Assembly: GCF_000003815.2 (NCBI RefSeq)
Contig: NC_049985.1
Span: 11,174,311-11,238,310 of the forward strand
Length of the DNA: 64,000 nucleotides
Direction of reading: 5' to 3'
DNA from: Branchiostoma floridae
Lineage: Eukaryota; Chordata; Leptocardii; Amphioxiformes; Branchiostomatidae
Shown here: piece after piece, positions 54,762 to 57,700 of the stretch
Position numbering within the stretch: position 1 is the first letter of the stretch
How the letters are laid out: the number at the start of each line of letters is the position of its first letter
Notes under the pieces: generated by a model
What the model was told of the DNA's origin: nothing
The model's input: only the letters and a program-made list of their open reading frames with translations
Database searches by the model: none
Made by a program: the position numbers and the translations under genes

Positions 54762-57700
54762 ATGAACTACGCAAGGTTCCTCAACGCCGTCAGTAAGGCG
54801 AGGGTCGCATCACCTATCCGAGAACTAAGTGAGTCTGTCACTCAACACTGAACTGTCTGGCTGATATAACGTCCTTGGGTAATCCGAACGGTGGACGGTA
54901 TGAACCTGTCCTCAGTTATAAACTTACATATGCGTGGTTCAACAGGTAACGAGATATTAAGAACTGCACTAAAGCAAATATACAAAAGTAACGGTCTCCT
55001 CTGTCAGCACTGGAACACCAGTACTAGAGTGGTCGTCAGCACTGGAAGTCCAGTGCTGAGCCGGCGTCAGCACTGGAAATCCAGTGCTGAGGCAGCTTCA
55101 GCACTCGAAGCCCTCCTGTCAGCACTGGAAACCGAGTGCTGAGACTACAATCAGCACTGGATTTCCAGTGCTGAGGACATTTCAGCTCTGGAAATCCAGT
55201 GCTGACAAATATTCTGCACTGGAAACCGAGTATAAAATGTATAAAGTTGGTGAAAAGAACTTACATTCTGTAACAAAATGTAAATGGACAACTGTATCAT
55301 AAAATGTTTTTTAAATGATGCTTCTTTGCCGCACAAGCAGAATGTATAGTCCACCTGTAACTACCTATTCTTTGTAAAAAAAAAAGCGATCTCTTTTAAT
55401 ACCACACAGATAGGCCAGCTGTTAGTTGTCTAACTCTGACTACCTATTGTTTTTTAAATGATGCTACTTTGCCGCACAAGCAGAATGTGTCGTCCACCTG
55501 TAACTACCTATTCTTTGTAAAAAAAAAACAAGCGATCTCTTTACCACACAGATAGACCAACTGTTAGTTGTCTACCTCTGACTAAAAAGACACTACTTTG
55601 CCACAAGTATAGAACTCAGACAGCCGTACGGACGCATGCTAAGTACACGAATACTACGTTCAGCACTGGAACGTTCCAGTGCTTTATAAACGTCAGCACT
55701 GGAAGCCCAGAGCTGAAGTTTTTACAGCACTGGTCTTCCAGTGCTGAAAAGTTCCCGAGCACTGGTAAATCCAGTGCTGAACCCGTTACTTTTGTATATC
55801 AGCACTCGGTTCCAGTGCTGACGGCGGTTTCAGCACTGGGTAACCAGTGCTGAATGACCTCTGCCGCGAGTTCAGCACTCAGGTACCCGAGTGCTGACGG
55901 CAGTTCAGCACTGGAAAACCAGTGCTCGGAGAAGTTCAGCACTGGAAATCCAGTGCTCGCATTGGGTTCAGCACTGGAATTCCAGTGCTGAGGGAGCTTC
56001 AGCACTCGAACAAGGCCGTTCAGCACTGGAAAACCAGTGCTGACGTTTCTTCAGCACTGGAAAACCAGTGCTGAGGCCGATTCGACCCATTGATTCAGCA
56101 CTGGAACACCAGTGCGGAACCCGTTACTTTTGTATACTTGCTGCACTAAATAACTTGCTCGGCAGACAAGTGGCAGAGGGAGGTGGCAATATTACATGTA
56201 GCACTTCATATGGATCTTCAGATGTGTAATTTCCATAATCACCATTATGCAAATTGAAAGGATGGGTCCAGTCCATCGGCCGAAAACACCCGCAAGCATT
56301 GTTTTGATAAAGCTAAAAATTTTGTGAGGATTGTGACAACTCTATTTAAGTTATAGGGCATTTTTTAAATGAAACAGTTGAGTCCTAGGTTGAAAATGCT
56401 TAGCTAAGTACAATGTATCTCTAATTCACTTGCTGTGCTAGCCTGGGTCAGGGAGTCTACTAGTACTGAAGTTAACTTGTGAATGACAATAACTACAATG
56501 TTCTGTCTTAATTTCCTTTCAGCTGCGATCCAACAGCGAGGCCCCCCTACCCTCATCTCCCTGGCCAGTGGGATGCCCAATACTGACATGTTTCCCTTCA
56601 TACAAGCTTCGGTAACTCTACCGTAAGTACCTTATCATAAAACGTTAATGTGGTATTGCATCCTTGGTCGGAAGTCCTCCTAGGAGACGGAAACTCCAAA
56701 CAACAAACCTGCATTTGCTGGGGCCGTCTTACACGTTGCATACAGTTGCCCCTGTAGGACTAGTGCGCCAGTGGACGAGAGGGTGGAGAAGGACGTGCAC
56801 ACCCCTCCTTCACCTTAAAAACCCAAGTGCAGGCCAGGCAGACGGGTCGCCTTAAACCCGTCCGCCTACCATTGTCTTCCGATACAGACGGATGCCAACA
56901 ATGTGGTATTGCTTCCCATGTTAATTGCATGACTTTTGTGTTCTTAATGACGAATGCATGCCGAAGTACTAGTCTGATAAACCAGTTCGCTGTTTGAACT
57001 AACCCACATATGTAAGGTCAATTAAACTATGCTTGATACATGTCCAGGTATTGTTTCAAAGTCTTTTTCATTCAAAATTTACATGTAAATTGCCTATAGC
57101 CAGTAGAGTAAGTTGAGATTATTTCTTCAATCTGATCCATATTATCTTTGTCTTCTTAGGGATGACAGCCAGCTGCATCTGGATCAGAAGTTGATCAAGA
57201 GAGCTCTACAGTACTCCCCTACACCAGGGTAGGTTCACGCTACAGTACTCTCCTACAGCAGGGTAGGTACGGCTACAGTACTCCCCTACACCAGGGTAAG
57301 TACAGCTACAGTGTACAGTACTCCCCTACACCAGGGTAGGGACACGCTACAGTACTCCCCTACACCAGGGTAGGTTCACGCTACAGTACTCCCCTACACC
57401 AGGGTAGGTACGGCAACAGTACTCCCCTACACCAGGGTAGGTACGGCTACAGTACTCCCCTACACCAGGGTAGGTACGGCTACAGTACGCTCCTACACCA
57501 GGGTAAGTACAGCTACAGTGTACAGTACTCCCCTACACCAGGGTAGGGACACGCTACAGTACTCCCCTACACCAGGTTCACGCTACAGTACTCCCCTACA
57601 CCAGGGTAGGTACGGCAACAGTACTCCCCTACACCAGGGTAGGTACGGCTACAGTACTCCCCTACACCAGGGTAGGAACAGATATTCTCCATACTGCAGA

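Follow-up and report, generated by a model that had tools for sequence, protein, structure and literature searches.

Palindrome arrays in intron 1 of amphioxus AADAT: probable subterminal arrays of a non-autonomous DNA transposon

The 64,000-nt stretch of the Branchiostoma floridae genome analyzed here (the window) includes part of AADAT, recognized by an exon whose top match is kynurenine/alpha-aminoadipate aminotransferase (E 2e-05); the exon borders and exon 1 were read by eye. The intron preceding this exon carries 22 units of CAGCACTGG type in two clusters, eight on the left and 14 on the right (Table 1). A full unit is a palindrome of ~24 bp, TCAGCACTGG-n-CCAGTGCTGA. Start-to-start distances are 32, 31, 31, 21, 32, 31, and 31 bp in the left cluster and 33, 31, 32, 43, 31, 42, 33, 31, 32, 31, 21, 31, and 44 bp in the right; the original prediction of 22 units, with all 20 within-cluster distances at 21, 31–33, or 42–44 bp, was reproduced on recounting. 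At up to one mismatch, CAGCACTGGA has 36 matches in the window, far more than expected by chance (mean 3.33 and largest value 9 in 100 shuffles). An Rfam search of the window gave no match.

Table 1. Features in and next to AADAT intron 1, in window coordinates.
Feature	Position	Strand	Remarks
Left target-site duplication, TGCACTAAA	54965..54973	.	Exact 9-bp direct repeat abutting TIRs
Left TIR, GCAAATATACAAAAGTAACGG	54974..54994	+	A at position 5, as at left ends of copies as oriented
Left subterminal array, 8 units	55005..55235	+	Half unit at 55099; last unit decayed
Left-cluster unit starts (n = 8)	55005, 55037, 55068, 55099, 55120, 55152, 55183, 55214	+
Central 143-bp repeat, two copies	55305..55584	+	Subfamily A (the window's)
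Right subterminal array, 14 units	55661..56117	+	Half unit at 56000
Right-cluster unit starts, first 7 of 14	55661, 55694, 55725, 55757, 55800, 55831, 55873	+
Right-cluster unit starts, last 7 of 14	55906, 55937, 55969, 56000, 56021, 56052, 56096	+
Third, internal TIR copy	55783..55798	-	Within right array
Right TIR, GCAAGTATACAAAAGTAACGG on minus strand	56121..56141	-	G at position 5
Right target-site duplication, TGCACTAAA	56142..56150	.	Exact copy of left one
Host AADAT exon 2	56525..56620	+	32 codons tested; element in preceding intron

Within one palindrome the 9-mer arms are separated by only 3–6 bp, usually 4; the longer spacers that had been described do exist, but between palindromes. 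After full units within clusters these spacers are 9 or 10 bp in 15 of 18 cases, the other three being 20, 20, and 22 bp. Among the units of the window the arms are 90–93% identical, vs. 25–27% for the spacer cores, which is about random. As had been argued, this excludes a simple minisatellite, defined by near-identical tandem units with the spacer included. A 33-bp minisatellite (CTACAGTACTCCCCTACACCAGGGTAGGTACGG, ~14 copies) is found elsewhere in the window, downstream of AADAT exon 2 (57206–57676). 

The clusters are most readily understood, with a probability of roughly 85%, as the subterminal arrays of a 1,168-bp non-autonomous DNA transposon (54974–56141) inserted in AADAT intron 1, and as putative docking sites for transposition machinery. 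The element has 21-bp terminal inverted repeats (TIRs) with one mismatch, flanked by an exact 9-bp target-site duplication (TSD). The feature was at first delimited as 55005..56116, which takes in the arrays; inclusion of the TIRs extends the element by 31 bp on the left and 25 bp on the right.

Searched over the genome (513 Mb in 431 contigs), the TIR pattern has 134 + 136 matches at up to two mismatches, vs. 1 + 1 for a reversed-pattern control, and the palindrome has 917 vs. none; among 100 listed TIR places, 35 are neighbors within 10 kb of one another. Thirty-two complete copies were examined for TSDs: 23 have an exact 9-bp repeat, four have one with a single mismatch, and five (L001, L008, L013, L018, and L026) have none in register, although in the flanks of L013 and L018 a repeat is visible, shifted by 3–4 bases. 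TIR position 5 is A at the left end and G at the right end of oriented copies; since copies were found through their TIRs, TIR conservation is biased upward. Inverted end repeats, a TSD of fixed length, and occurrence at many unrelated loci are together as expected of a non-autonomous DNA transposon.

The 31 copies compared range from 290 to 9,863 bp, and share a common layout. The first unit is preceded by 31 bp in all 31, and the last starts 45–46 bp from the right end in all but one (L052). The series 32, 31, 31, 21, 32, 31, 31 and 33, 31, 32, 43, 31, 42 or 63, ..., 21, 31, 44 recurs among them with gains and losses, so that the spacing series is common to the copies while unit number varies. 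An internal TIR copy interrupts the right array in 30 of the 31 (L031 lacks it). The centers define two subfamilies: those of subfamily A, the window's copy included, consist of 143-bp repeats, and those of subfamily B have a different shared center, shortened to varying degrees. One 4.2-kb copy (L034) encloses a nested 795-aa reverse-transcriptase-like (LINE-like) frame at 1513–3900 (-), recognized by eye.

Unit number changes mostly by whole 31-bp units, and array growth and shrinkage are mostly ordinary gain or loss of tandem units (31 bp for a full unit, 21 bp for a half unit). Palindrome spread by a copying process acting in 10.5-bp steps, one of the two explanations originally offered, is therefore not required, except perhaps for one spacer that differs by exactly 21 bp between the window's group (42) and other copies (63). 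In L001, at about 1541–1690, the 21-bp half unit is expanded as a head-to-tail run. In the window itself, 55067–55142 in the left array and 55968–56043 in the right are 86% identical, the 21-bp half unit included; for this reason, and because all members of the family inherit a common layout, the 20 distances cannot be counted as independent.

Two sites of the histone-type hairpin described below led to copies (L075 and L078) with arrays ~85% identical to those of A and B but with a different TIR, GCAARNCTACGAAAACCTC. This TIR, that of a related family (C), has 42 + 50 genome matches vs. 1 + 0 in the control. In five complete copies the 9-bp TSD is exact in four and has one mismatch in the other. 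The layout is that of A/B: the first unit comes after 31 or 32 bp, and the last lies 46 bp from the end. Half units are 21 bp (22 in one left array) and are absent from the right array of L083; the inner TIR and the spacings 43 and 63 are present in four of the five. Inner and outer TIRs are alike within each family, CCCGTTAC in A/B and GGCGAGGT in C, a likeness maintained through selection or gene conversion.

Several comparisons suggest that spacer length is under constraint. Of the changes common to at least two of 25 copies, six fall among 243 arm positions and 25 among 201 spacer positions (Fisher p 4.7e-5); for single-copy changes, arms and spacers differ weakly (p 0.048). Between a B copy (L048) and a C copy (L078), 6 of 180 arm positions are changed (3%) vs. 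37 of 117 spacer positions (32%; p 1.3e-11), and the paired spacers are of equal length in eight of nine cases, including one of 41 bp carrying 14 substitutions. This pairing was by hand, from one copy per family, and excludes partnerless spacers (four of 13 in B, two of 11 in C). The ratio of indels to substitutions is 0.04 in the arrays (nine copies) vs. 0.24 in the center (18 copies), a value raised artificially by tandem repeats and a poly-A tract. Single copies do have insertions of 8 and 10 bp, as well as larger deletions. With arms conserved, and spacers diverged but their lengths kept, the spacing likely is constrained and probably matters. The conservation of spacing proposed at the outset is in this sense borne out.

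Whether the constraint is a helical one is harder to judge. Over 31 copies, 577 of 613 distances deviate by no more than 2 bp from a multiple of 10.5 and 36 deviate by more, but this is mainly because 31 and 21 are inherited units. When 31 is held fixed and the four other spacing classes are drawn at random, an equally good fit is obtained in 1.4% of trials (p 0.014), which is suggestive, and a helix-face rule with 10.5-bp phasing is plausible. The 20 window distances fit a period of 11–11.5 slightly better than 10.5; the best period is not sharp, and one of exactly 10.5 bp was not established.

By analogy with known systems, each palindrome could be a binding site for one protein dimer, the protein, which another element would provide, being either a transposase or an accessory DNA-binding protein. 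Many stacked dimers might then cooperate, pairing both ends with transposase at the TIRs, and the spacing would be kept because dimer stacking requires a near-integral number of helical turns. A site-binding protein, already proposed for the array, remains the best reading of its sequence, if a putative one, and the reader of the spacing is likely the transposition machinery.

The bound protein could in principle be a host factor, attached to one face of the helix and regulating AADAT through an operator or enhancer array. The position in intron 1 and the conserved palindromic sites with their helix-like spacing are what such an array would have, and a host factor could secondarily bind the arrays of any copy. 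Equal arrays, however, are found at many loci, complete with TIRs and TSDs; the array is part of a mobile element whose end sequences number ~270 genome-wide, and the first unit of the window's own copy has decayed (CCAGTACTA, vs. CCAGTGCTG in the other displayed copies having that unit). A local AADAT operator, the other explanation originally offered, is thus highly improbable.

Two further explanations are compatible with a transposon. Minisatellite-type dynamics could have spread a 31-bp unit inside it by slippage or unequal exchange, its spacing without function and kept by descent. This would account for the changes in unit number, which are mostly in whole 31-bp units, for the tandem half units of L001, and for the relatedness of the left and right arrays in their 21-bp half units. 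It is nevertheless unlikely: spacer cores are about random in sequence where the arms are 90–93% identical and 15 of 18 spacers are still 9 or 10 bp, and between families the spacers are 32% diverged with eight of nine pairs equal in length. Alternatively, in the manner of foldback elements, the palindromes may function not as protein sites but as DNA hairpins or cruciforms that form during excision or replication. A single strand of a typical unit does fold well (−10.4 kcal/mol, z −5.7), and at unit 55873 the stem is, as had been noticed, changed on both sides together. At 55120 and 55800, however, just one of the two sides carries this change, and the chance of one such overlap among 19 full units is 0.20, so that this single unit does not demonstrate stem covariation; compensated stem changes are not in excess among the 19 full units of the window. 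Most copies, moreover, have one-armed half units in both arrays, and such units are also present in family C. A purely structural role thus appears distinctly unlikely.

Subterminal protein-binding sites on a transposon have precedents, and the original statement that no element of this form has been described was too strong: in the available portions of the literature, subterminal repeat arrays are described for Muta1, Tm1, and CACTA elements. In Muta1, each TIR contains nine subterminal repeats of 12 bp, and the number of repeats varies among the non-autonomous copies (PMC5225508). Muta1 and other Aedes aegypti MULEs resemble the amphioxus element in their 8–9-bp TSDs and palindromic terminal motif, and in their many non-autonomous copies, which vary in repeat number and have dissimilar interiors (PMC5225508, as far as available). 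The Muta1 repeats, however, have 3–4-bp spacers and lie within matching 145-bp TIRs (PMC5225508), whereas here 24-bp palindromes at ~31 bp form unequal arrays (8 vs. 14 units) between TIRs of 21 bp. Tm1, a Mutator/Foldback element of root-knot nematodes, shares the 9-bp TSD, the unlike outer motifs at its two ends, and a tandem subterminal motif of variable number, and one class carries a histone hairpin (PMC3169594, in the part available). The Tm1 motif is a 13–15-bp direct repeat, not a palindrome (PMC3169594). A variable-number subterminal tandem motif together with a 9-bp TSD, as in Tm1-like elements, is what is found here.

In CACTA elements (En/Spm), asymmetric subterminal arrays of direct and inverted repeats are bound by the accessory protein TNPA, which is needed for transposition (PMC2613891, PMC8195511, both from partial texts). 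These elements are from plants, and neither their CACTA ends nor their short TSD (three bases in Tgmt*) is seen here (PMC2613891, PMC8195511); the ends GCAAR and the 9-bp TSD rule out CACTA membership. Galileo, of the P superfamily, carries several transposase-binding (THAP) sites along its long ends, and a higher-order synaptic complex has been proposed for it, although its three sites are widely separated and its ends differ from these arrays (PMC3688188, in the text available). By TSD length and design, the closest described relatives of the amphioxus family, compared by description, appear to be Mutator/Foldback elements, with Tm1 the nearest. MULE TSDs range from 8 to 11 bp (PMC6446971, available text), a range that includes the 9 bp found here. 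No description of the family was found in the available portions of the amphioxus-transposon literature, although a catalogued Repbase consensus may exist.

The search for a transposase gave 27 genome matches to the MULE domain PF10551, none within 31 kb of a TIR and the nearest at 31.7 kb, in a comparison covering 176 of the 362 TIR places (100 of the 270 for A/B and 76 of the 92 for C). These 27 matches may be of interest in themselves, since the authors of PMC6446971, in its available portion, found no MULE transposases in lancelet. As a possible autonomous partner, the longest complete copy (L033, 9,863 bp) had no Pfam match below 0.05 in any of the 10 frames searched, out of 30 listed.

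Some copies do retain what looks like the end of a gene. In L042 (669–1120), a 135-aa open frame ending RRLFDTNNNED is followed by the histone-type hairpin GGCCCTTTTCAGGGCCACC. Shorter tails of this frame precede an identical hairpin in L013, L020, L038, L043, L070, and L076; their several different breakpoints (those of L020 and L076 look alike) are as expected for internal deletions. In family C, a tail ending NNNEEAG stands ahead of the hairpin in L075, L078/L083 (one locus), and L081, and L080 and L082 have no hairpin. AATAAA is also found downstream in most of the hairpin-bearing tails. Kept by two families with different TIRs, and at varied breakpoints, the hairpin-tailed frame is best read from these sequences as the transposon lineage's own probable gene, and its mRNA may be processed like histone mRNA.

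Contig C17 has two frames ~50% identical to the L042 piece that end in an identical hairpin; these hairpins score 36.4 and 35.5 bits vs. an Rfam RF00032 cut-off of 34, while in the same search those of L013, L038, L042, L043, and L070 fall below it. The C17 frames, near-identical and 286/287 aa long, are in L068 (2003–2860, -) and L069 (7108–7968, +); the 10 kb surrounding each contains no palindrome arrays. Neither the element's C-terminal piece nor the 287-aa relative has a convincing match in Pfam or NCBIfam, nor has the latter in PDB sequences. A fragmentary relative (L074) likewise has no array, and a single TIR-like match with several mismatches.

The hairpin 19-mer has 132 genome sites. 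Twenty-two, chosen by eye from the 100 listed and mostly isolated, were compared with the TIR lists: 12 are less than 1 kb from a TIR, and one more is in L076. Another isolated site (L079) adjoins a histone H2A-like frame (by eye), and one (L077) is beside another gene. Most of the other 78 listed sites are clustered, and are taken to be histone clusters. In the histone-hairpin and transposon literature available, only Tm1 was found to join the hairpin to a transposon, and this family was not found described; no coding potential is obvious in any of the three described Tm1-HH elements (PMC3169594, in the part available), whereas here the hairpin comes after the last codons of an open frame.

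The intron array is in effect a natural experiment on transposon-end construction. Two families have different TIRs but equal arms and spacer lengths, so the spacing rule is open to binding and excision assays. The histone-type hairpin in transposons with 9-bp TSDs joins two distant animal lineages, and makes cell-cycle coupling of transposition directly testable. One tentative and still doubtful picture is of an animal transposon lineage in which each end forms a long scaffold of helically phased dimer sites, the internal TIR evolves in step with the outer one, and the element's own gene ends in a histone-type stem-loop. Its protein would then be made in S phase, when sister copies could let cut-and-paste transposition gain copies, and the Tm1-HH hairpin would reflect an equal strategy and not a chance capture. 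For annotation, the practical point is that intron arrays of this kind should not be taken for enhancers. Near one transposon copy (L070, 3309–4547, -) there is also a frame with a weak OTU-protease match, at 22.1 bits vs. a cut-off of 23.3.
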